Below are positions 1 through 56,362 of a stretch of DNA of 64,000 bases, piece after piece. Source of the DNA: Comamonadaceae bacterium (lineage in GTDB: Bacteria; Pseudomonadota; Gammaproteobacteria; Burkholderiales; Burkholderiaceae_C); contig CANBVJ010000001.1 of assembly GCA_947372865.1 (NCBI GenBank), positions 1 to 64,000 of the forward strand, in the 5' to 3' direction. The notes under the pieces were generated by a model. The model made no database searches. It was not told the origin of the DNA and saw only the letters and a program-made list of their open reading frames with translations. Positions within the stretch are counted from its first letter, which is position 1; each line of letters starts with the position of its first letter. The position numbers and the translations under genes are program-made.

Positions 1-3
1 TTT

Positions 4-32
4 TTCACGCCTAAAAAACGAGCAAGTACAAT
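4..32 (+). promoter_or_regulatory. Candidate sigma70 promoter of the tRNA-Ile gene
   Basis: A TACAAT hexamer at 27-32 (5/6 to the -10 consensus) lies about 10 nt before the tRNA 5' end. TTCACG at 4-9 (4/6 to the -35 consensus) is separated from it by 17 nt. The site is on the chromosomal side of the integration junction, so the host promoter would drive the intron-containing tRNA. Called from spacing and consensus only. Confidence 0.45.
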
Positions 33-73
33 CAGTTTTATGGGGCGTTAGCTCAGTTGGTTAGAGCAGAGGA

Positions 74-79
74 CTCATA
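74..79 (+). repeat. Putative attL crossover core CTCATA
   Basis: These six bases span the anticodon and the first intron base. They recur at 10459-10464 at the start of the displaced tRNA 3' half. Sequence before the core matches tRNA only here; after the core, tRNA is continuous only at the right copy. This is the exchange point expected for an integrase that uses an anticodon-loop site. The core is short, so its exact borders are inferred. Confidence 0.6.
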
Positions 80-288
80 TTTTTCAAATGTGCCTTGCGC
101 GAGGAAACTGCGTAAGGGATGGTGTCAAATTCGGTGAAACCTAAGTGTGGCAACACATACGGCAATGCCGAGCGAAGCTTAGTGCGAAAGCGCTTTGAAC
201 GTGTAGAGACTTGACGGCACCCGCCTAAGTTGAGCAATCAATATGGTGAAGGCAAAGTCCAGAGAGTGGCGAAAGTCACACAAATCAG
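79..288 (+). ncRNA. Group I intron (Azoarcus-type, IC3-like) in the tRNA-Ile anticodon loop
   Basis: The 210-nt insert lies between anticodon position 3 (T78) and AA of the anticodon loop. This is the same site as the known ~205-nt Azoarcus tRNA-Ile intron. P1 can form from exon CAT plus ATT (76-81) and AATGTG (88-93), placing the conserved T-G wobble at the 5' splice site. The last intron base is G288 (omega G). The core resembles the Azoarcus ribozyme throughout: GTGCC and AAGGGATGG near the start, GGTGAAACCTAAG, TAGAGACTTGACGGCACC, then AAAGTCCAGAGAGTGGCGAAAG. The GACT and AGTCC segments fit P7 and its guanosine site. There is no internal ORF or homing endonuclease, so mobility must come from elsewhere. 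The position next to an integrase suggests co-transfer with the island. Confidence 0.95.
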
Positions 289-334
289 AATCCTTTGGTC
301 GACAGTTCAAGTCTGTCACGCCCTACCAACGATG

Positions 335-367
335 AAGAGGACTGTGTAAAAGCAGTCCTCTTTTTTT
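335..367 (+). terminator. Rho-independent terminator after tRNA-Ile
   Basis: A 10-bp perfect stem (335-344 with 353-362) has an 8-nt loop and runs into seven T. It lies directly after the tRNA CCA end, on the island side of the junction, so the island brings a terminator as well as the tRNA 3' half. Confidence 0.88.
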
Positions 368-427
368 ATTTCGGCACTACACACTTACTTGGTTGCTCTT
401 TTTTGGGTTTGAAATTAAAGTCCATTG

Positions 428-1846
428 ATGTCAGCCAAACTTGAAACAACGCACGTAGTCTCAGAAAACGAAATCGTCGTTTACCTGCGTGAGCGCAGTT
501 CAATTTGGCAATGCCGCTACAAAGTTGATGGTGTTTGGCAACGGGCTTCAACTAAAGAGCGCAAGTTGAAGGATGCCAAAGAAGTAGCCAAAACTCTCAG
601 GATTCGTGCAGAAATTCGCAAGCACGACAACCTGCCTGTCATCACACGCAAGTTTAGGGATGTTGCAAAACTTGCTATCCAGCGTATGGAGCAGAAGATT
701 GCCAACGGTGATGGCAAAGTCTCGTTTAAAGATTACATACGGATCATCACCGACTACCTGATTCCAATTCTTGGCAACAGGCTGATCACAAACATTGACA
801 ACGCGGCCCTTGATCACTTGGATGCTGAACGCATCAAGATGATGGACAGGGCGCCAAGTAAAAGCACGTTGCTGAGTCAAAACGCCGCGTTGAATTTGGT
901 TTTTGATGAAGCTGTACTGCGTAACTTTTTAACTGAACTCAATCGGCCGAAGCTGGAAGCCAAAGGCAAGAAAAGCACCCGTCACCCAGCTTTTGAGTTG
1001 AATGAACTTCAAGCCGTTCTCAACAACTTTGAAGAATGGATTGAGCGGGCACGCAACGACCATAGCAAAGAGATGCGCCAAATAATGCGCGACTATGTAG
1101 AGATGCTGGTCGATACGGGGGCACGTCCCGGCAAAGAGCTGATGAACGTGAAATGGAAGCAGATCAAATTTTCGATGGACCCCATTGAGATCGACACAGG
1201 AAAGAGCCTTGTCGTGAAGGATGGGCCAAAAGAAAAAATAGTGCTCACCGATCTCCGACGCATTGTTGAAATGACTGTTTCGGGGAAAACAGGAGCCCGT
1301 CAAATTATCGGTCGGTCGCCTACGGTCAGAGTGCTGGAGAGAATTGCACGTCGCGTTTATGGCGTGAAGAATTCAGTCTCTGATCCCTTCAAAGATGTGA
1401 TTACGCCGAACAATGATGACTATGTGTTGCGAACCAAGTCAAAGAAGCAAGATGTGAGTTCAGCTTTTCAACATATGTTGGAAAGGTACTTGGAAGAACA
1501 TAACTTGCTTTATGACCCAATGACAGAAACGAACCGCGTGTTCTACAGTTTCAGGCATACATATGCAACGCTGGCACTGACGCACGACAAGGTGCCAATT
1601 CACACCCTTGCCAAACAGATGGGCACCAGTGTGCTGATGATCGAGCGTCATTACTCACACTTGAAAGTCATACAGGCCGTTGAGCAGTTAAGCGGTGCAG
1701 AGACTCGTAAAAGAATTGCCTCTGCGTCAACGGTTGAAGAAATATATCAATCTGCAAAAGTAAAAAATAATTCAGACTCAGAAACGAAGATGCCAGCCGC
1801 TAAAAAAGCTGTGCTCAAAAAATCTAAAAAACTAAATTTAAATTAG
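428..1846 (+). CDS. Tyrosine recombinase/integrase of the island
   Basis: The 472-aa product has the layout of phage and island integrases: a Lys/Arg-rich N-terminal part, a helical core-binding domain (about residues 60-190) and a C-terminal catalytic domain. Visible motifs are Arg in TGARPGKEL (about residue 236), the box II Arg in FYSFRHTYAT, and the nucleophile Tyr in ERHYSHL. The first His of the usual HxxR box is Tyr, and the GH of LGH is GT; both changes occur in some island integrases. The C-terminus is a Lys-rich tail. ATG at 428 is preferred over an in-frame TTG at 425. Placement just after the tRNA indicates that it catalyses integration and excision at the anticodon-loop site. Confidence 0.9.
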   Translation: MSAKLETTHVVSENEIVVYLRERSSIWQCRYKVDGVWQRASTKERKLKDAKEVAKTLRIRAEIRKHDNLPVITRKFRDVAKLAIQRMEQKIANGDGKVSFKDYIRIITDYLIPILGNRLITNIDNAALDHLDAERIKMMDRAPSKSTLLSQNAALNLVFDEAVLRNFLTELNRPKLEAKGKKSTRHPAFELNELQAVLNNFEEWIERARNDHSKEMRQIMRDYVEMLVDTGARPGKELMNVKWKQIKFSMDPIEIDTGKSLVVKDGPKEKIVLTDLRRIVEMTVSGKTGARQIIGRSPTVRVLERIARRVYGVKNSVSDPFKDVITPNNDDYVLRTKSKKQDVSSAFQHMLERYLEEHNLLYDPMTETNRVFYSFRHTYATLALTHDKVPIHTLAKQMGTSVLMIERHYSHLKVIQAVEQLSGAETRKRIASASTVEEIYQSAKVKNNSDSETKMPAAKKAVLKKSKKLNLN

Positions 1847-1937
1847 CCATCGGTACACCGCCAAAATGACAGGACTTCGGTTGCTCATTTGATGTGATGA
1901 ACTAATACTGTATTCACACAGTAAAGGAATACACACA

Positions 1938-2303
1938 ATGATCACAGAAGATGAATTACTAAAGAACCTTAAACATTTCACAGGTTCAGATCATTTAGCC
2001 AGATTGACCCGAAGTGTATTGTTGACTGAGGGTACGAGATATCTAGCAGAAGCAGCAGAGTGTTTTTGGTTGCTTGATATTTACGCATCGCATTTATCAG
2101 GAATTGATAGCGACAAAGAAGGTTTTACTTGTTTGAAGCTTTCCAAAAAAAACAGGTTGACTTCAGTATTGATTGAAGATGGAAACGGCAGGGTGCTTGC
2201 AAAGCAGAATATTGAATACACAGATTTCCCACTAAGCGCCATCACTCTGTATGGGTGCTGGGCTGGTGATTTTTGGGTTCTGATGCTACCTAGCGAATAC
2301 TGA
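1938..2303 (+). CDS. DUF6876-like mobile-element protein
   Basis: A 121-aa soluble protein with an AAAGGA ribosome site upstream. It begins with a 'LLKNLKHFTGSD' segment, followed by 'YLAEAAECFWLLDIYASH' and ends 'GDFWVLMLPSEY'. This order is familiar from the DUF6876 family found on plasmids and islands. The biochemical function is unknown. It stands alone between the integrase and a convergent gene. The family assignment is from memory of the motif pattern. Confidence 0.7.
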   Translation: MITEDELLKNLKHFTGSDHLARLTRSVLLTEGTRYLAEAAECFWLLDIYASHLSGIDSDKEGFTCLKLSKKNRLTSVLIEDGNGRVLAKQNIEYTDFPLSAITLYGCWAGDFWVLMLPSEY

Positions 2304-2549
2304 TCATTTAATCCAATTATTAGCGCTCAAAAGCACGTCAAAAACGCCCAACAGCGGAGCAACAAAATGCCGATAAACCGTGTCGCAAGCGGAAATGAAA
2401 ACGACAGCGTATAGGGCATTTCCGTTACGGCGCAGGCGAAGAGAAGGTTTTGGCTGAAGTCTGGATTGGCGCCTATTTCAGGTCAGGCCATTTGCGGTGA
2501 ATTGACCTAGGTGCCAAGTACCGCATAATTAATTTATACCCGTAAGAAC

Positions 2550-2572
2550 GCTCCATCCGTATTGGATGGAGC
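2550..2572. terminator. Hairpin between convergent genes
   Basis: Perfect 9-bp stem GCTCCATCC / GGATGGAGC with a 5-nt loop, just past the 3' end of the minus-strand gene that ends at 2590. No long T run follows on either strand, so a role in termination is only plausible. The rest of the 2304-2589 interval shows no gene. Confidence 0.4.
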
Positions 2573-2589
2573 TTGGTCCCGAAAGATTG

Positions 2590-3030
2590 TTATTTCGTAA
2601 ATCCAGCCTTTAGCTTTTCGCTTGCTTGGCTGATGGCGTCATCCAGTTCCCCGGCCAGTACGGCTGTTTTGATAACGTCCAGTGTCGCAACGAGGTCTTT
2701 GTCGCTGGCGAGCTCTACAGCCCACTTATTTTTTGCCAATTCCAACACTTTAGCGCCGTAGCGGACGCTAAGCGATAACTTGCCGTTTTCGCCTGTAAAC
2801 CACCAGCATTTGACGCGCTTGTTGGTCTCGACTTGCTTGCGTTCACCTGTCTCCCGGTCTGTCACTGTCCGAAACTTGATGGGAGCGAACTGGGTGCCTG
2901 CCTGCTGTGCTTTGGCCAATTCCGCCTGCTCCCATAAACGCTTGACCAGTTTGTTACGGCGTTGCTGTACTTGAGAAATGTTGAATGGTTTTTGAGCTGC
3001 TGTGAGCTTGAGAGTTGCGAGGGTTGTCAT
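2590..3030 (-). CDS. DUF6641-like protein
   Basis: A 146-aa basic protein starting MTTLATLKL. It carries the series NKLVKRLWEQ, LAKAQQAGTQFAP, KFRTV and KRVKCWWFTGENGKLSLSVRYG, recognisable as the DUF6641 family of plasmids and genomic islands. Function is unknown; the charged N-terminal helices and WWF(T) strand region could bind nucleic acid, but that is a guess. AAGG lies 8 nt before the ATG at 3030, which fits better than the in-frame ATG at 3036. Confidence 0.75.
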   Translation of the reverse strand: MTTLATLKLTAAQKPFNISQVQQRRNKLVKRLWEQAELAKAQQAGTQFAPIKFRTVTDRETGERKQVETNKRVKCWWFTGENGKLSLSVRYGAKVLELAKNKWAVELASDKDLVATLDVIKTAVLAGELDDAISQASEKLKAGFTK

Positions 3031-3154
3031 ATGCATTGCCTTTCAGATGTTGTTAATGCGTAGACAACTTTAAGTTCGGTCGCCAACGAAGAGCAACCGA
3101 AGTCCGTTCAGATTTTCGGGTCATTAAATATCGTGAATATTTAAAAATCAGATA

Positions 3155-4363
3155 TTACGGATTAGTTGCAGTAATCAGGCTATCGAAAAGCCTTCTTGAT
3201 CTTAGTGTTCGCATTCCATTCACACGTACAGGGTCTGCTGTATGGATAACAAGTACGGATTTTGAATCACGATCAACAAATACATATTGGCCATATGATC
3301 CAACCATAGCGTACCGACCAGTACTTTTTTGCAGCCAAAATTGGTATCCATATCCTGATAACTTGTCTGCTTGATCGTACTTAAATCCTTCCGGTTGCCT
3401 CTCCACATTTGTCGCCTGATCAATGTACTCTGCTGACAGCACACGCCGACCGTTAATTTCGCCCATATTGGCAAGCATTACAGCAACTTTTGCATAGTCA
3501 ACTTGAGTTGCATTAAATCCAGAATGGCCTAATGAATTACCTTCACTATCTGTTTCCCAATACGCGTCAGCCTCTGCACCGATCGGCTCCCAAAGTTTCT
3601 CTTGTGTGTATTGACAGACACTTTTACCAGTTGCACCACGAATTACTTCGGCCAGCACGGCAGTTTCTATGCTTGCATAGTTAAACTTTTTACCCTCGTT
3701 AGAACTTGTACGTTGCCACTGGTTAAGTGTTTTTGGGACGCTGGAAGTTGAATTATTACGTAGTAAGTCGTCAAAAACAGAGGCATCTCCTCTACCTGTG
3801 TGTGGCTCTGAATATGGGAGGCCCGAAGACATCCGAAGTAGCGATCTGATTTTTATTTTGCTGTAGCTTGATTCATTAATTCGATCTGTATATTTTGAAA
3901 CAGGATCATCAAGACTAGTTATCAATCCTTCATCGAGTGCAATACCAATCAAAATGCTGGTTATTGACTTACCAGCCGAAAAGGATGCAAATAGATCATC
4001 AGCTCGCCGTTCGTATTGGTAATGCTGATCGATAACCTTGCCGTCTCGCACAAACATAAGTCCCATTACATTGTTCTTTTCGAGATGCTCTTTCAATGTG
4101 TAATTGAAAATTAATTCGTATTTTGTGTTCGATAAGTCACGAGGGGCAGGTGGCAATGGTACTGGAGTAGATGACTTGGCAACTTTGCAGGTTGGCGTTA
4201 TCTCCGCCATATGTGTAAACATTCCAACTTGGTGTGTCGTGCCTCGAACAAACGAAGTAGGTATTGGGTAGCGCTTGTCTCGTTCTTCGTGTTCTATAAA
4301 CTGGGCGTTCGACAAATTCGCGACAACTAGGAGCAACAAACCAAGCGATTTTTTCATACGCAT
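3155..4363 (-). CDS. Exported serine hydrolase of the beta-lactamase (class C/esterase) family
   Basis: 402 aa with a signal peptide (charged MRMKKS, hydrophobic LGLLLLVVANL, then SNAQF). The penicillin-binding/esterase fold motifs are present: SxxK as S129-A-G-K132, and Y229-A-S231 at the place of Tyr-x-Asn. A terminal beta-strand reading VLVIHTADP stands where the KTG motif is found. Such proteins act as periplasmic or surface esterases, amidases or D-aminopeptidases; resistance to beta-lactams is not implied. Substrate unknown. It is cargo of the island and has no operon partner. An in-frame ATG at 4357 is an alternative start. Confidence 0.85.
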   Translation of the reverse strand: MRMKKSLGLLLLVVANLSNAQFIEHEERDKRYPIPTSFVRGTTHQVGMFTHMAEITPTCKVAKSSTPVPLPPAPRDLSNTKYELIFNYTLKEHLEKNNVMGLMFVRDGKVIDQHYQYERRADDLFASFSAGKSITSILIGIALDEGLITSLDDPVSKYTDRINESSYSKIKIRSLLRMSSGLPYSEPHTGRGDASVFDDLLRNNSTSSVPKTLNQWQRTSSNEGKKFNYASIETAVLAEVIRGATGKSVCQYTQEKLWEPIGAEADAYWETDSEGNSLGHSGFNATQVDYAKVAVMLANMGEINGRRVLSAEYIDQATNVERQPEGFKYDQADKLSGYGYQFWLQKSTGRYAMVGSYGQYVFVDRDSKSVLVIHTADPVRVNGMRTLRSRRLFDSLITATNP

Positions 4364-4454
4364 TCTTTAGCTACAAGAGTTGATTCAGTGTACGTTCTTG
4401 AGTCGGCTCGCGCAACGAGTATTGATGCACCCCTGCACCAAAAGTGCGAACACT

Positions 4455-4631
4455 TCAAGTCGCGCCAATATTGGCTAAGCTGATCTGAGCCTTCTTCAGC
4501 TTCTGCCGCTCTCGTTCCGCTTTAAGATTTTTGGCCGCCGTGTCCTTTTGTCGCTTGAGTCCGTCAATGCGTGATTGATCGGGTGTTGTCGGTGCGATTG
4601 GTTTGATACCAGTAATTTCGTTGATTTTCAT
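4455..4631 (-). CDS. Small basic coiled-coil-like protein
   Basis: 58 aa, starting MKINEITGIKPI. Residues 15-50 are almost entirely charged and helical, with many Lys, Arg and Gln, and resemble small phage or plasmid proteins of unknown function. The frame overlaps the end of the upstream gene if the TTG at 4649 is used. ATG at 4631 is preferred, 10 nt after that gene's stop. Co-transcription with the gene at 4642-5007 is likely. Confidence 0.5.
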   Translation of the reverse strand: MKINEITGIKPIAPTTPDQSRIDGLKRQKDTAAKNLKAERERQKLKKAQISLANIGAT

Positions 4632-4641
4632 ACCGCCATCC

Positions 4642-5007
4642 TCAACCAATCAGTACAGGTAGTGCTGTGTAGTGATCGCCATCATTGCGCATCTGCACAG
4701 CAGCAACGGCTTTGATGATCATTCGTCGCACCGCCATATTTCCGGTATTGATGTGTTGCATTCGATCAGCAATTTCTTCCGTAATTTTGATCAATGCCTT
4801 CTTTATCTCACGGCAAGGTGTGTGTGTCTGTTTGTATGTCAGCACCTCAGCTAGGTGTATGAGTGCATTTGTTGATAGATCAAGGTTTTGCGCAATGATG
4901 CTGCCGTAATAACCTTCACTTTTTCCGCAGTACCTGCTAAATCGACGTACTGTCATATCTGGAATGGCTTTTTGAGTCAGCTCATATATATCTTTTGTGG
5001 ATTTCAT
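4642..5007 (-). CDS. Small protein of unknown function, possible DNA-binding
   Basis: A 121-aa protein with a strong AAGGAGA ribosome site 7 nt before ATG. The N-terminal half (residues 10-55) reads VRRFSRYCGKSEGYYGSIIAQNLDLSTNALIHLAEVL, a helix-turn-helix-like arrangement reminiscent of DUF6626 and other small repressor-like proteins. The remainder is helical. It reads away from the palindrome-rich region at 5008-5924, consistent with an island regulator acting there. The family is not certain. Confidence 0.6.
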   Translation of the reverse strand: MKSTKDIYELTQKAIPDMTVRRFSRYCGKSEGYYGSIIAQNLDLSTNALIHLAEVLTYKQTHTPCREIKKALIKITEEIADRMQHINTGNMAVRRMIIKAVAAVQMRNDGDHYTALPVLIG

Positions 5008-5347
5008 ATCTTCTCCTTTGTTCTTATTGTTAGAGTTTGCTTGCGCAAACTGCGATTTCTTTTAGCTAGCGCTAAAATCATCGCTTGTTTTTTTAATTTA
5101 TTTAATATGTATAATTTATTTAGTACTCATTTACTAGGAAGCATATGCCACGCCTTGCGGCGCAACAACTTTTACTGAGGTTTTATTCATACTGCATACA
5201 CACAACTTGATTTAACAAGAAAGGTCGGTTTTGCGATCGCCTTTTAAGTGCGTGTCTTACGCAAGCAATAGACGGCCTATGCAGCAGCCGGTGTCTATGC
5301 TTTGTGGGGTACTTGCAATGCAAGCGTGGCTCTCCCACTCACTATTT

Positions 5348-5368
5348 GTCAAGTGCTAAGCACTTGAC
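5348..5368. promoter_or_regulatory. Perfect 21-bp palindrome, possible operator
   Basis: GTCAAGTGCT-A-AGCACTTGAC is perfectly symmetric around one base and is not followed by a T run. This makes a protein-binding site more likely than a terminator. The candidate binder is the small protein encoded at 4642-5007; this is inference. Confidence 0.35.
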
Positions 5369-5500
5369 GGGAAACTGTTAAGACGATAGCAAACGTACCA
5401 TTCACTTTTCGTTTTTTTAAAATAATTAAAAATTTTATATAGTGAATCCACCTAGATTCCAGGCAGGTTTAAAGCTCTCGTACATCATACGGAGAGTGCT

Positions 5501-5557
5501 ATGAATCAGCGCAACAAGCTACGCTTTCTTTACCGTCTCACTTCAGAACGGATTTAG
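5501..5557 (+). CDS. Possible 18-aa peptide
   Basis: ATG is preceded by GGAGAG at a good distance and opens an 18-codon frame, MNQRNKLRFLYRLTSERI, then TAG. It is strongly basic. It could be a leader peptide, a remnant, or chance. Reported because the ribosome site is good and the region is otherwise empty. Confidence 0.2.
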   Translation: MNQRNKLRFLYRLTSERI

Positions 5558-5754
5558 CAGCACAATTCAATCGGCGTGCAACCTTTTGAAATTACAGTAA
5601 TGTAATTTGCATCTTGTTATGTATAAGTTATTTATGCTTATATCTATATTATGCCAATTTACAAGCTAAAAAGCAAGCTTTTGGGGGTGTGGGTAGCGCA
5701 GGCCTGATATAAGCGCTTGTAGGGCTTTTTACAGGGTTTGGTAATTTCCAAGTA

Positions 5755-5790
5755 AAAAACCAAAGCTTTTATGTAAAAGCTTTGGTTTTT
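5755..5790. terminator. Bidirectional terminator with 17-bp arms
   Basis: Arms AAAAACCAAAGCTTTTA (5755-5771) and TAAAAGCTTTGGTTTTT (5774-5790) are perfect complements with a 2-nt loop. They carry A and T runs at both ends, so the hairpin can stop transcription either way. It insulates the recombinase gene that starts 135 nt later. Confidence 0.75.
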
Positions 5791-5924
5791 CTGTTCATTT
5801 CCATCGAAATCCCTTGAAAATCTCGTATTTTTACCCAGAAAAATAGACCAAAAAACAGGTAGGAATTAATAAACAAAGAATATATGCTTAATACACACAA
5901 AAACTTATATTTAGGAGATTACAT

Positions 5925-6500
5925 ATGTCTAAGCAAGCCAAAACACTCACAGCGCAAGAAATCCGTCGAGTTTTGGACTATTTGGCAACGCGCAAGCATA
6001 GCGAACGCAACCGCGCAATGCTTTTAACGATGTACTACGCAGGTCTTCGCGTAAAAGAGTGCGCAGCACTGCGCTATGACGACGTAATTGATCTTGAAGG
6101 AAAAATCAGGGCTGAGATACGTCTGAGCCCCGAACAAACAAAAGGCAGTAAAGCAGGGACTGTTTTTGTCAGCGAAAAACTTCGCAAGGAGCTACACGCT
6201 TACGTCAAAGCAGTACCGCCAAACGCGCTGACAGATAAGTTGTTTTATTCACAGAAGCGACCCGCAGACGGATGGAACAGCAACACGCTCTGCCAATTCT
6301 TCCATCACTTGTTTAAGCGTGTTGGCATTGAAGGTGCATCTAGTCACAGCCCACGCCGCACACTGATTACAAATTTAGCAGATAAAGGCGTGTCTGTGAG
6401 AGTGCTTCAAAGCATCGCACGGCACGCCAATATTTCAACTACTCAGGCTTACATCGACGTTAATGACGAGATGAAACGCAGGGCGATTGAGTTGGTTTAG
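5925..6500 (+). CDS. Small tyrosine recombinase (catalytic domain only)
   Basis: 191 aa, the size of FimB/FimE-type recombinases, lacking a full core-binding domain. All active-site motifs are present: Arg in AGLRVKEC (about residue 43), Lys in TKGS, HxxR in SHSPRRT, His in ARHANIS, and Tyr in TQAYIDV. TTAGGAG lies 8 nt upstream of ATG. It may invert a DNA segment, resolve dimers, or assist the main integrase. No inverted-repeat pair that it could act on was identified by eye. Confidence 0.88.
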   Translation: MSKQAKTLTAQEIRRVLDYLATRKHSERNRAMLLTMYYAGLRVKECAALRYDDVIDLEGKIRAEIRLSPEQTKGSKAGTVFVSEKLRKELHAYVKAVPPNALTDKLFYSQKRPADGWNSNTLCQFFHHLFKRVGIEGASSHSPRRTLITNLADKGVSVRVLQSIARHANISTTQAYIDVNDEMKRRAIELV

Positions 6501-6629
6501 ATTTTTAATAGTCACCCCTACACCCAGTCATTTTTAATTCCATTTGCGAGACGGCTACACGGATTTTTACGATGCGGCTGTAGGGCGTTTTCAATGCAGA
6601 TGTAGCGCATAAAATCATCCAGAGTTAAA

Positions 6630-7505
6630 TTAATTTATTTCCAGCTGACTAACTTTGCCAGTTTTAATGATTGCTGCAATTTCCGCCATAACTTCCTTTT
6701 CCTTACCTCTAAACCCGTGTTGGGTAAGCGCTTCGCAGACACCACCCTGAAAGCCACCACCGCCGGAAACAGTGACTAATGGAGTGTCAAATTTCCCTGC
6801 AATAGCTTTGGCGCTCGCATATGGGGTCAAGCTACAAGGATCGTTAACGTGATGGATAAAGAAATGAATTGCCGATGGTTTTTTGTAGTCAAAACCAGCA
6901 AGCTCTTTGTATGAATTTCTTGCATATGGTTCAGTAATTGCAGCGGTATGAATTGCACCTGCGTAAGCAGTTGGATTGTGTAAGGGCATAAACGATGATG
7001 AAATCGTCCCCATACTGGTACCAACAAGCCAAACATCGCGAATTGATGGTGTACGTTTTTTGACTTCAAAAATCAGCTTATCTACGTCTTCTTGTCTTTC
7101 TTTCGATGCCTGATAACCACTTGAGCAATAATCACCGCCTTCGCTTTGGCAATCAACAATCAAAGTCGCAATAGACTCATCCGGCAAAAACCTTCTTGCT
7201 CGAATTAAAAAATTACCAGTCAATTTAGATGATGCCATTACGCCGTTTTCAACAACGGGCCTAACGACCGAAGGGTAACCCGGAAGTAGGACGGCAAGTT
7301 TAATAGGCTTATCTGATCCAATTTTGGTTGAAAAAACACCAGTCTGTTTTTTGCTACCTGACAGGTCAACAGCAATTAACTCCTCGTTTAAACCTTGAGC
7401 GTGAACAGGAATGCTTTGCGCTGAAGCTGGTATGCCATTTGTACTTAAAGACAAAGCAACTCCAACTGCTGCAAGCATCCGTATATAGGATTGATGTTTT
7501 TTCAT
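6630..7505 (-). CDS. Exported alpha/beta hydrolase
   Basis: 291 aa. The signal peptide ends near PASAQS (about residue 30). The fold is recognisable from LPGYP, the nucleophile elbow G-T-S164-M-G, Asp in HVND222PC and His in TQH263GF, giving a full Ser-Asp-His triad. Cys pairs (119/127 and 224/257) could form disulfides in the periplasm. Substrate unknown; an esterase or lipase-like activity is likely. It is unlinked to the serine hydrolase at 3155, but both are island-borne exported hydrolases. Confidence 0.8.
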   Translation of the reverse strand: MKKHQSYIRMLAAVGVALSLSTNGIPASAQSIPVHAQGLNEELIAVDLSGSKKQTGVFSTKIGSDKPIKLAVLLPGYPSVVRPVVENGVMASSKLTGNFLIRARRFLPDESIATLIVDCQSEGGDYCSSGYQASKERQEDVDKLIFEVKKRTPSIRDVWLVGTSMGTISSSFMPLHNPTAYAGAIHTAAITEPYARNSYKELAGFDYKKPSAIHFFIHHVNDPCSLTPYASAKAIAGKFDTPLVTVSGGGGFQGGVCEALTQHGFRGKEKEVMAEIAAIIKTGKVSQLEIN

Positions 7506-7706
7506 TTGTTCACTTCATTTGAATGAGATTTAATCGCACTCAGTTCGCTTGAAATTTGGTTTTTTATTAGTGTCGCACGGCTTTGTCCACGGCCACCTTG
7601 AACGACAACTTGCTGTATTACTGCCCAATGCTTGCTAACAAGTTAACCATCAGCTTTGAGTGAATTAACATTTTTTAAATTTATAGGATTTTGCATATTA
7701 AAAAAA

Positions 7707-7730
7707 ACAAGCCAGCAATCGCTGGCTTGT
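7707..7730 (-). terminator. Rho-independent terminator of the lipoprotein gene
   Basis: A 10-bp perfect stem ACAAGCCAGC / GCTGGCTTGT with a 4-nt loop. Read on the minus strand it is followed by a run of T (the A run at about 7700-7706). It lies 11 nt past the stop codon of the lipoprotein gene at 7741-9828. Confidence 0.85.
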
Positions 7731-7740
7731 TTGCCTCAAA

Positions 7741-9828
7741 TCAATACTGACGTAGCTGTGAGTAAATCTGAAGCCCATCAATAGTTCGGGAGCGGACTTG
7801 CACGGTACCAGAATCGGGTGTACTGCCAGCGTTGATCCAGCTTGAACCTGTTTTGCACGCAGGCGAACCTGTAGCGGTGCAATCAAGCGATTGTGTAAGT
7901 CGCCCAATTGGTATCCGGTTGTTACTTGTTGCTGAAAGGCCTTTTGACCAATAAAGTGCTGCAGAGAAAACCTGCGAAGTACCCAATTGATCCCAGCCAA
8001 CCGTATAAGTGTCGTTCCCGGTCAATGAGCCGTTGAACGCGTCAAAATCAGTGTTATTGATTGCAGGGAAATTAACTTTGACAACACTATCCATAGTCAA
8101 TACAGGATAAGACACTCGGTTCACGTACGTCCGTATTGTTCCATCGCTGTATGTCAGTTCAAAGGTGTAGGGCTCACCTGTCTTTATCACACTCAACTCG
8201 TTATCGGTCAAATAATTCCCGCTGTTCCATCCAGCCATATATGAAGGAACCGACGCGCTTGGTGTGTATGATCCAACTGGATTATCATTGTATGCAAGTC
8301 TAATAACTCCGGCACACCCTGCAGCATTAGGTGTCGTAGAAAGGTACGGGGTTGTGATGACACTGGGGAATTCTATATTCAAATATCCACCACAAACGTT
8401 GTAGGTAGATGCTGTACTTGAAGTAACACCGATACTTGCCGTGGCGGCCCGATTGAGTTTATTAGCAAAGTACACTCCACCGACAGGAAGGCCACGTCCC
8501 TTCACGACGGCTTTGACCACATATTTTTTATTTACACCAGTACTAATTGATCTGACGCTGTAGGCATTTACATAAAGATTAAGACCAGTTTCATACCGGA
8601 TAGAACCTGTATTGATATTTTTGATTTTTTGGACAACGGGCTCAGCATAAGTGCTTGCATCACGCTGATTTCCTGAGAATTTATATTTTTGGGATGTTGG
8701 ATCGTATGAGGCGATTATGTAATTACCTCCTATGGAATCACCGAGTTGCCCAATTGAGTTGTCTGAGTATTTAATTGGAAATTTAACGTACCATTTATTT
8801 TGACTCACACCCCTTATTGTTGTTGGGGTTAGAAATTGTAAGTTATCATAAGCCGCATTAGTTAGCATATAACCGAACATACCAAGGCAATATGTATTAT
8901 TATTTACGCAACTCGATGTGCTGTCTATCCAATAATAACCATTATGTTTAAAGTCGCTGGTGGCTAATCCGTCGCAATCGGTAGCTAAGATCCAAACTGG
9001 ATTCCCCGATGTGGCACTCTGAGTAGCTCGCGACGCCGCTGGCAATGCAAAACAGGAGTTGAGTTTTGTTAGTAATGCTTGTAGATTGTTTGCACTCAGC
9101 ACCGATGTTGGAGCTGGGAGATTGTTACTTGCATTTGCCGCAGGTAGTTGGCCCACTGAAAGTTGCGTCAGCGTGACACCTGCCGTAGCGACCTGACCGT
9201 TTGTGTATTCGCCCAGCAAATCAGTTAAGGCTTGACCTTCACTTGTACCCAGAACGACTTGACCATTGGGTAATACTTGAGCGTTGACGTTATCCAATAG
9301 TGCGTCATAGTTGCTGTTGAATGTGCCAGAGATCAGATCCGATGTTGCATTAAACGAACTCACAACCGTTGATAGCGCTGCCGAGTATGCATTTACCGCA
9401 GCACTGATCGTTGTACTGGTTAGGCTGTTTCCTGCAGACAATGTGATGGGATTGCCGTCAGCAGATAAATTAGCTGCGATTGCGTTCGTAATCTGGTTTA
9501 CGTTAGCTGTGCCACCAGATGAGACCGACACCAAAGTTGTTGTGCTGTCTCCTACTTGCCCAATCGCTTTGATCGTGAATGGTGCTGAAAACCGCGTCAT
9601 ATCAATGTTGGTCAGACTGTACGCACCGGATGCATCTGTCGTGGTCGTGCCTGCAAGCTGCCCCCTGGAATCGTAGATTTCCACCGTACCCAAGGCCATA
9701 GGTGCACCCATTGCAACGGTGCCAGACAAGTTTAATTGGCCAATGGGTGCAGAGCCTGAGCCACCACCGCAAGCACTAAGAAGAGCTAGTGCCGATGCTG
9801 CCAGGGTATTTTTGATTGTTGTCTTCAT
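7741..9828 (-). CDS. Large surface lipoprotein with a carboxypeptidase-regulatory-like domain
   Basis: 695 aa from ATG 9828; the open frame extends further upstream but lacks lipoprotein features. The N-terminus is a type II signal with lipobox LLSAC followed by GGGSGS, so it should be lipidated, with a flexible linker. Residues about 25-90 (GTVAMGAPMALGTVEIYDSRGQLAGTTTT..., with GAYSLTNID) form a CarboxypepD_reg-like beta-sandwich. The rest is Ser/Thr/Asn/Tyr-rich with scattered Cys and no recognised domain, typical of outer-membrane-anchored binding proteins. The role is unknown. The first residues after Cys are Gly, so there is no inner-membrane retention Asp. Confidence 0.75.
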   Translation of the reverse strand: MKTTIKNTLAASALALLSACGGGSGSAPIGQLNLSGTVAMGAPMALGTVEIYDSRGQLAGTTTTDASGAYSLTNIDMTRFSAPFTIKAIGQVGDSTTTLVSVSSGGTANVNQITNAIAANLSADGNPITLSAGNSLTSTTISAAVNAYSAALSTVVSSFNATSDLISGTFNSNYDALLDNVNAQVLPNGQVVLGTSEGQALTDLLGEYTNGQVATAGVTLTQLSVGQLPAANASNNLPAPTSVLSANNLQALLTKLNSCFALPAASRATQSATSGNPVWILATDCDGLATSDFKHNGYYWIDSTSSCVNNNTYCLGMFGYMLTNAAYDNLQFLTPTTIRGVSQNKWYVKFPIKYSDNSIGQLGDSIGGNYIIASYDPTSQKYKFSGNQRDASTYAEPVVQKIKNINTGSIRYETGLNLYVNAYSVRSISTGVNKKYVVKAVVKGRGLPVGGVYFANKLNRAATASIGVTSSTASTYNVCGGYLNIEFPSVITTPYLSTTPNAAGCAGVIRLAYNDNPVGSYTPSASVPSYMAGWNSGNYLTDNELSVIKTGEPYTFELTYSDGTIRTYVNRVSYPVLTMDSVVKVNFPAINNTDFDAFNGSLTGNDTYTVGWDQLGTSQVFSAALYWSKGLSATSNNRIPIGRLTQSLDCTATGSPACKTGSSWINAGSTPDSGTVQVRSRTIDGLQIYSQLRQY

Positions 9829-9983
9829 TTTGTGTCTTTTGGTGAAAATGGAAAAATTAACACAAGTGTTTTTTAACATAGCTTGTATCAATGAGCAACA
9901 AAAATTTGGTCGAACCTGCCCATCCCCCGTAAGCTGATACCTACTACTACAAAAGTTATGAGCATCCAATTGGCATTTTTTTT

Positions 9984-10250
9984 GGCAGGTTTGCCACCTC
10001 TGATACGGGCCAGACGATTCAGAAAATTTCTGACACAACTAGCATCTCATCTGATGGCATAACCTACACAAAGATGGGCTCTACAACTGTTGGTAGTGAT
10101 GGTTCGGTGTTCTCGCAGATGGGCAGTTTCAGCACTGATGGCAGTACACGAATGGGCAGCACTGCAACGGGTTTAGGTGCTGTGTTCAATGATCGTAAAG
10201 AAGATAAATTTGGTTTTGACGATGACGATGACGATGATGACAAGTGGTAA
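9984..10250 (+). pseudogene. Remnant of a GSDG-repeat protein gene with poly-Asp tail
   Basis: One frame reads a coherent repetitive protein: repeats of the type QKISDTTSISSDG, TKMGSTTVGSDG and SQMGSFSTDG, then a charged end with eight Asp and DKW, stop TAA at 10248. Similar short 'IGdTTfgSDG' repeat proteins occur in mobile elements. The coherent frame starts near 9984 without an initiation codon. The first in-frame ATG is 10074, which would give 58 aa. It is therefore most likely the 3' part of a gene truncated at the island end. Confidence 0.5.
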
Positions 10251-10458
10251 GGCGTTTACACTTAGGGGTTGCTGGCAGTTATTGCGTATCGCCATAGTGA
10301 TGAATGAGAGGTTTTTGCAGCGTAAAAGTGCTGTGAAACAAAAAAGTTTGAAGTTATTTTTAACTAAAAACGACGCAGTTCACTACACACTTTGCTACAC
10401 ACCTGATAAATTACGTTGTAAGCTTTTGATTTATAACGATATTTTATTTGTGAGACTT

Positions 10459-10503
10459 CTCATAATCCTTTGGTCGAGTGTTCAAGTCACTCACGCCCTA
10501 CCA
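10459..10503 (+). repeat. attR: displaced 3' half of tRNA-Ile(CAU), intronless
   Basis: 45 nt from CTCAT of the anticodon loop through the encoded CCA. Compared with the left copy, AATCCTTTGGTCGA, TTCAAGT and TCACGCCCTACCA are identical, but the T stem is GAGTG/CACTC instead of GACAG/CTGTC. There is no 5' half, so it is not a functional tRNA. It most likely is the original chromosomal 3' end displaced by insertion. It shows that the pre-insertion tRNA had no intron at this place. Confidence 0.85.
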
Positions 10504-56151: not shown

Positions 56152-56205
56152 CCGCGCCGGGGGAGGGAGGGGCGCTTTTTGCGGCCCTGCGCTAAAATCA
56201 ATCAC

Positions 56206-56290
56206 TTCCGAGGAGCGTTGCAGTTCATGTTGATGAACGAGGCTCGGGGCGACTGGCGCAATGCCGGTCGGATGTAACGGCGCTCACCCA
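56206..56290 (+). promoter_or_regulatory. SAH (S-adenosylhomocysteine) riboswitch
   Basis: The conserved string CCGAGGAGCG-TTGCA opens the element (56208 on). GAACGAGGCTCGGGGC follows a hairpin, and the end is AACGGCGCTCACC (56276-56288). These are the signature blocks of the SAH riboswitch. The ligand turns on genes that recycle SAH and homocysteine. It controls the homocysteine methyltransferase gene starting 72 nt downstream. Confidence 0.93.
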
Positions 56291-56362
56291 CGCAAACGGT
56301 GCGGTGAATGCGAGTTTTTCAACCCTCCGCTGCGTGGCCACCCTTTATTTAGTGAGTGAGCC

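Follow-up and report, generated by a model that had tools for sequence, protein, structure and literature searches.

The first 64 kb of contig C1 (CANBVJ010000001.1) of a Comamonadaceae bacterium, the stretch of DNA that we analyzed and call the window, begins inside an integrative element of ∼10.6 kb whose start lies upstream of the window. The element appears to break the host's tRNA-Ile(CAU) gene and to supply in its place a complete tRNA-Ile(CAU) gene of its own that is interrupted by a group I intron. From sequence comparison, we regard this break-and-replace architecture, with rescue of the host dependent on splicing, as very probable. In the mechanism that we propose, the tyrosine integrase INT1 would join the element's attachment site (attP), CTCATAATC, by recombination to the host tRNA-Ile(CAU) gene within its anticodon loop. 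The element-borne tRNA gene would then be transcribed, its intron would splice itself out, and the spliced tRNA, modified by TilS, would stand in for the lost host tRNA.

The split host gene and its replacement

The two halves of the host gene lie on different contigs. Contig C46 (minus strand) ends in exactly 149 bases that are identical to window positions 1–149 (+). Upstream of this overlap, C46 continues with 105 bases outside any tRNA, which form the element's left end and bear two CTACACAC repeats, and then with a second tRNA-Ile 5′ half (C46:255–295, minus strand; GGGGCG...GGACTCATAATC) that lies 187 bp upstream of the 5′ half at position 42. The displaced host 3′ half starts with CTCATA at C1:10459–10503 (+) and matches the native gene at 45/45 bases. 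Both halves carry a common 9-bp core, CTCATAATC, in the anticodon loop (10459–10467, +, at the right junction). The left junction on C46 reads CTCATAATCTATTATT, the right junction is the bare 3′ half, and the host tRNA is rebuilt at neither. Because C46 carries the host 5′ half, the host gene is split, and 42–328 is a separate, complete, element-borne gene.

That C46 adjoins C1 we infer from their shared 149 bases and from the isolate Limnohabitans sp. B9-3 (L060/L078), in which the same parts follow one another on a single contig. That contig holds the full element in the arrangement of the window: 5′ half, left end, intron-bearing tRNA, INT1, a DUF6876 protein, INT2 (a second tyrosine recombinase), and bare 3′ half. 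The INT1 proteins of B9-3 and the window are 98.5% identical, and the two DNAs align at 92.8% across 3.1 kb and at 79.8% across 2.2 kb. The host halves, when joined (77 bases), are present unbroken, intronless, and 100% identical in at least 7 of the 41 genomes compared (G314, G321, G305, G317, G217, G299, and G301), all of the same genus. We also considered a crossover within 14 bases (AATCCTTTGGTCGA) into a native gene that already bore the intron and rejected it, as the native matches listed are intronless and the host 5′ half lies on C46.

The replacement gene consists of a 5′ exon (42–78, +; 38/38 bases against the native query), a group I intron after U36 in the anticodon loop (79–288, +), and a 3′ exon that includes the CCA (289–328, +). 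The joined exons give a 77-nucleotide tRNA with anticodon CAT, the same anticodon as in the host gene. ARAGORN labels this tRNA Met; we call it tRNA-Ile(CAU) because it resembles both the native gene and described Ile2 tRNAs, and we take the latter resemblance to speak for Ile rather than Met. Against the full RF00028 model, the intron scores 42.4 bits (E 1.5e-9), which falls short of the gathering score of 50. A U precedes its 5′ splice site and a G ends it, both as in group I introns, and in the predicted fold of 71–100 the end of the 5′ exon pairs with the intron in a P1-like hairpin. Self-splicing of 79–288 is probable. As for a homing endonuclease gene, no open reading frame (ORF) of 80 or more amino acids overlaps the intron. 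Group I introns of the Azoarcus type in tRNA-Ile(CAU) genes lie after U36 and are about 200 nucleotides long. The window intron, compared with them by description, shares this position and approximate length and likewise leaves no room for an endonuclease gene; unlike the Azoarcus type, it rides on an integrative element. Crystal structures of the Azoarcus-type intron are mentioned in a passage of PMC3984707.

Behind the replacement tRNA, a terminator-like hairpin is followed by a T run (334–367, +). The stretch of B9-3 that matches it (L060 2866–2895) was detected in a terminator scan that gave one find against 0.5 expected. A promoter scan near the replacement tRNA of L060 found none. By eye, TACAAT lies about 10 bases upstream of several replacement tRNA copies.

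Among the matches listed, none of the seven genomes with the replacement layout (the host and six others), whose assemblies may be incomplete, has a full-length native-like copy above 84%; the single full-length match at 84% is a tRNA-Lys. With no further native-like copy listed, the host seems to rely for its tRNA-Ile(CAU) on the gene that the element carries and the intron interrupts. The host encodes TilS with a score above the curated cut-off. ATA accounts for 69 of 645 Ile codons in a rough count over 32 window ORFs of at least 300 amino acids, some of which are perhaps spurious.

A preliminary description of this DNA had placed the tRNA 5′ part at 42–78, the intron at 79–288, the exon at 289–328, an integrase, and a bare 3′ half at CTCATA, and sequence and profile matches bear out all of these. 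It had further proposed that the native gene was intronless, that the crossover took place in the anticodon loop, that the intron travels with the element, and that the host comes to depend on it. These points agree with the 77/77-base matches in relatives whose gene is unbroken, with the meeting of both host halves at the core in the loop, with the position of the intron-bearing gene inside the element, as in B9-3, and with the apparent lack of another copy. Its account of the left junction did not stand. The description took 42–328 for a hybrid gene of host and element, formed by crossover at the 5′ splice site with CTCATA as the shared block, the element bringing only the intron and 3′ exon. 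C46 holds the host 5′ half, the shared core is the 9-bp CTCATAATC found at the C46 junction and the right junction, away from 42–328, and the whole tRNA gene sits 146 bp inside the left end of the element.

Related loci and the attachment site

At E 1e-30, 17 of the genus's 103 genomes hold an INT1 homologue. At E 1e-60, 6 of a family sample of 399 genomes do, and at E 1e-55 so do 10 of 84 from the genus of B9-3 and 49 of 186 from the Polynucleobacter genus. Long regions were examined at 38 places, a subset of the Polynucleobacter-genus matches. Many of these loci are conventional by layout, with a 3′ half from the element rebuilding tRNA-Lys, Met, Leu, or Asn, and in L083 and L094/L107 tRNA-Ile(CAU) itself. 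Loci of the replacing type seen in the window number 29 in 27 genomes (26 tabulated plus L190, L192, and L206), a second copy in L. parvus being outside this count. An orphan 5′ half lies upstream in 24 of the 29 (shortened in L132, altered in L074), and the other five (L115, L185, L190, L192, and L206) have a core junction with a neighboring element instead. The orphan half of L074 (2071–2111; G310) has the altered loop GGATTCCTAATCC and is perhaps decaying. The fetched pieces of L073, L132, and L133 contain no INT1 match, and in Polynucleobacter INT1 lies up to ∼3 kb downstream, so that we infer its assignment to the element at such loci.

Introns interrupt 26 of the 29 replacement genes, after U36 in 21 and, with a different intron, after U33 in five (L115, L132, L133, L195, and L209); three have none. 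Loci found by way of the integrase number 26, and 23 of these carry an intron. The U33 introns are 244–250 nucleotides long where measured, and the two tested match RF00028 at E <7e-5, under the gathering score. At L113 (1323–1397, −), the antisense of tRNA-Ile(CAU) matches RF04354 (Plastid-ycf2) with fewer bits than that family's gathering score; trnI-CAU sequence may be part of the family. Names such as hrcA and rpoD for neighbors of the tRNA genes were given by eye from translations.

L. parvus II-B4 (L058) carries two elements in tandem, and their junction, AACTTCTCATAATCTATTTAAAATG, joins a right end to a left end with no intron between them. This junction would represent an attP-like site without an intron. 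The preliminary description had proposed an intron-bearing attP and had itself named an intron-free one as the observation that would count against its model. With the junctions at L179 (CTCATAAgC) and L062 (CTCATAAcC) taken into account, the sequence in common shrinks to CTCATAA, which is the 7-base anticodon loop. A seven-base overlap is as expected of a tyrosine recombinase, according to a passage of PMC8371274. We considered the second L. parvus copy as the left-over of a lost element, but ∼62 kb beyond it the contig shows another bare 3′ half, accompanied by two repeats (L175), which makes a second, large element likelier. Soon after this second replacement tRNA (L176; G189, reverse strand, from ∼570) lies what looks by eye like a serine-recombinase-like protein.

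Role of the intron

We favor the reading that the intron hides the replacement gene from the element's own INT1, with a confidence that stays a little short of even. An intronless copy would be a perfect host-type target (attB) on the same molecule as attP; the intron would part the two halves of the target in DNA and be removed in RNA only. The occurrence of introns in nearly all replacements, of two kinds and at two positions, we count for hiding. Relative to a 21-base reference target (CAGAGGA-CTCATAA-TCCTTTG, as read from the 5′ exon), the replacement gene has 3 to 10 differences in 25 of the 26 tabulated loci. The intron alters the 7-base overlap in 24 of the 29 loci, with two bases changed in L197 and more than two in the five U33-intron loci. 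Four others (L177, L074, L179, and L086) keep the overlap whole with a changed arm; of these, L179 and L086 are intronless replacements with another anticodon stem. On an integrase tree, an intron accompanies 18 of 21 replacing rows vs. 1 of 23 conventional ones (Fisher p 2.8e-8, kinship ignored), and the best tree needs at least four changes between the two types. The tree has 60 rows, was built by a quick method, and has many weak forks; 13 undetermined rows and 3 scored as "intron near" stand outside the 21 and 23. Partial or distant INT1 matches were left out, among them L083, L084, L095–L098, L101, and L104, as well as L105, L108, L138, L141, and L144.

Several observations weigh against hiding. 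In 18 of the 29 loci, the overlap differs from CTCATAA only at its last base (CTCATAT or CTCATAG; CTCATAT in the window), and in L177 and L074 the intron begins with AA, which leaves CTCATAA whole. L193 is an intronless replacement whose target is intact, with no differences (1 of 29), a clear exception to the notion that every replacement lacks an intact target. Once relatedness is allowed for, three independent pairs on supported branches are left, and the sign test gives a median p of 0.5. At L062 (G184; reverse strand, ∼13600) and L188 (G756; 2388–2732), the right end of an element is joined at CTCAT to an intron followed by a 3′ half, with an overlap of CTCATAA or CTCATAG (one each). Most simply, both would be cases in which an element entered an intron-bearing gene at the 5′ splice junction; alternatively, L188 may be a left end of the kind that the preliminary description proposed, though no arm repeats follow it. 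The layouts of L062, L188, and L210 (described below) suggest that the intron is not always protective, and we reject a strict shield because the first two argue for leakage. Finally, according to a passage of PMC4090602, the group I introns of bacterial tRNA genes are in any case situated in the anticodon region, so that finding one where an anticodon-loop crossover takes place is no great surprise.

The main rival, and quite a plausible one, is that the intron is a passenger: the captured tRNA gene had or gained an intron that splicing renders harmless and that plays no role in integration. The loci just described at which the intron is missing or seems not to protect (L193, L062, and L188) suit such a passenger, as do introns found away from elements. 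In the genus, 18 of 103 genomes have the intron, five of them with the element layout; in the other 13, no element stands beside the gene in the stretch read, which for several is a contig end. Six of the element-free genes (G394, G357, G392, G389, G391, and G371; L117, L118, L119, L128, L129, and L130) have another tRNA body and lie just before tRNA-Arg(ACG). Introns from elements and from chromosomes are intermingled: that of G382 (L127), whose gene has no element near it, is 89–91% identical to those of two elements (L074 and L091) and groups with them at 99%. This likeness fits the loss of an element that left its intron behind or the capture of the intron by elements, in either direction. 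Introns are, however, far commoner in replacements (23 of the 26 found by way of the integrase) than across the genus as a whole (18 of 103), two unlike introns are involved, and the two intronless replacements other than L193 have changed anticodon stems, all of which speak against a mere passenger, although near relatives inflate these numbers. A broader form of the hiding reading holds that tRNA-Ile(CAU) introns are kept as the elements' disguise at the DNA level, that elements are a main vehicle of their spread, and that element-free intron genes are left-overs of lost elements; this we put forward as a possibility that is open to considerable doubt.

It is unlikely that the intron instead guards the sole remaining tRNA-Ile(CAU) gene from other elements that use the same loop and not from its own integrase. 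Such an exclusion of competitors has been proposed for an archaeon (in a passage of PMC3293823), and the elements that stand in tandem in L. parvus and in Limnohabitans sp. Jir61 abut at the cores of their ends and not in the replacement genes. Tandem insertion nevertheless still occurs, and L062 and L188 look like integration into intron-bearing genes. For the window, a hybrid 42–328 with an attP of CTCATA, intron, and 3′ exon is highly improbable, even though L210 (1886–2320; G559) shows that layout (5′ half, intron, and 3′ half, two arm repeats, and an INT1 of 47–49% identity, the right junction falling off the contig), since the left end with its two repeats lies between the C46 half and position 42 and the attP-like junction of L. 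parvus is intron-free.

Element content, known systems, and significance

Part of the element's left end aligns in inverted orientation with part of its right end, and CTACACAC repeats are present at both. Two right-end repeats (10383–10402, +) are putative arm sites of the integrase. A single repeat at 377–384 (+) is perhaps a relic of arm sites, which follow the tRNA in conventional relatives. INT1 (425–1846, +) matches PF00589 (E 1.6e-7) and the integrase family phrog_216. The DUF6876 protein (1938–2303, +; Pfam) also lies behind INT1 in L058, L060, and L061. INT2 (5925–6500, +), a short recombinase of 191 amino acids identified by Pfam and PHROGs matches and by sister elements, has relatives kept in several of the latter at 45–67% identity. 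The cargo, all on the minus strand, comprises a DUF6641 protein (2590–3036), a PF00144 serine hydrolase with a beta-lactamase family fold that implies no resistance role (3155–4363), a small protein (4642–5007) and a larger one (6630–7505) with no Pfam or PHROGs match, and a secreted-type protein with a weak CarboxypepD_reg match (7741–9831). Among 8 proteins compared with Pfam and 6 with PHROGs, the integrases are the only phage function, and none is a phage structural gene. INT1 relatives were found in no viral contigs and no phage records, and the five matches in plasmid records are all below 33% identity. Elsewhere in the window, an S-adenosylhomocysteine (SAH) riboswitch matches at 56204–56292 (+) with 48.6 bits against a gathering score of 37.

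Break-and-replace integration is known from the tRNA-dependent lysogeny of actinobacteriophages (Guerrero-Bustamante and Hatfull 2024, PMC10865867). In the passages of that paper covered here, those phages share with our element a tyrosine integrase, a host tRNA gene as attB, junctions that rebuild no tRNA, and an element tRNA of the same isotype; the core is about 10 bp there and 9 bp here, and the table includes a phage at tRNA-Ile2-CAT. The same passages report no intron in a replacement tRNA, and our element, unlike those phages, shows no phage structural gene among the scanned proteins. Conventional islands of the Islander type, in the part of PMC4383910 covered, likewise have a tyrosine integrase beside a tRNA and a displaced fragment at the far end, but they rebuild the split gene, whereas the element here does not and brings a whole one. 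A closer parallel to the intron is described in passages of Sugahara et al. 2012 (PMC3293823): at a Caldiarchaeum tRNA-Thr locus, an orphan 5′ fragment is accompanied by a recombinase element and an intron-bearing tRNA, and those authors suggest an intron-carrying attP and protection of the integrated element by the intron. There, the intron is archaeal, spliced by protein, and part of attP; here, the intron is a group I ribozyme that interrupts a second gene, itself complete, and attP appears to be intron-free. Protection of tRNA genes by introns was argued for archaea by Randau and Soll 2008 (as cited in passages of PMC4390854 and PMC4090602). Their intron parts the halves of an integrase target, as here, in defense of the host; in our reading, it would do so to the element's benefit. 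In a literature search that covered subscription journals little, we recognized no paper that describes such an element with a group I intron in its replacement tRNA. Break-and-replace integration is known, and what appears to be new is the ribozyme intron inside the replacement tRNA.

The loci form a bacterial set with natural controls: related integrases sit on conventional and on replacing elements, and the replacement genes are intron-bearing, recoded, or intact, some of them in cultured freshwater bacteria (Limnohabitans and Polynucleobacter). This set would make the question of intron protection testable, and it could explain how tRNA introns that lack an endonuclease spread. In the bacteria concerned, an apparently essential tRNA would come under the control of a mobile element's ribozyme.

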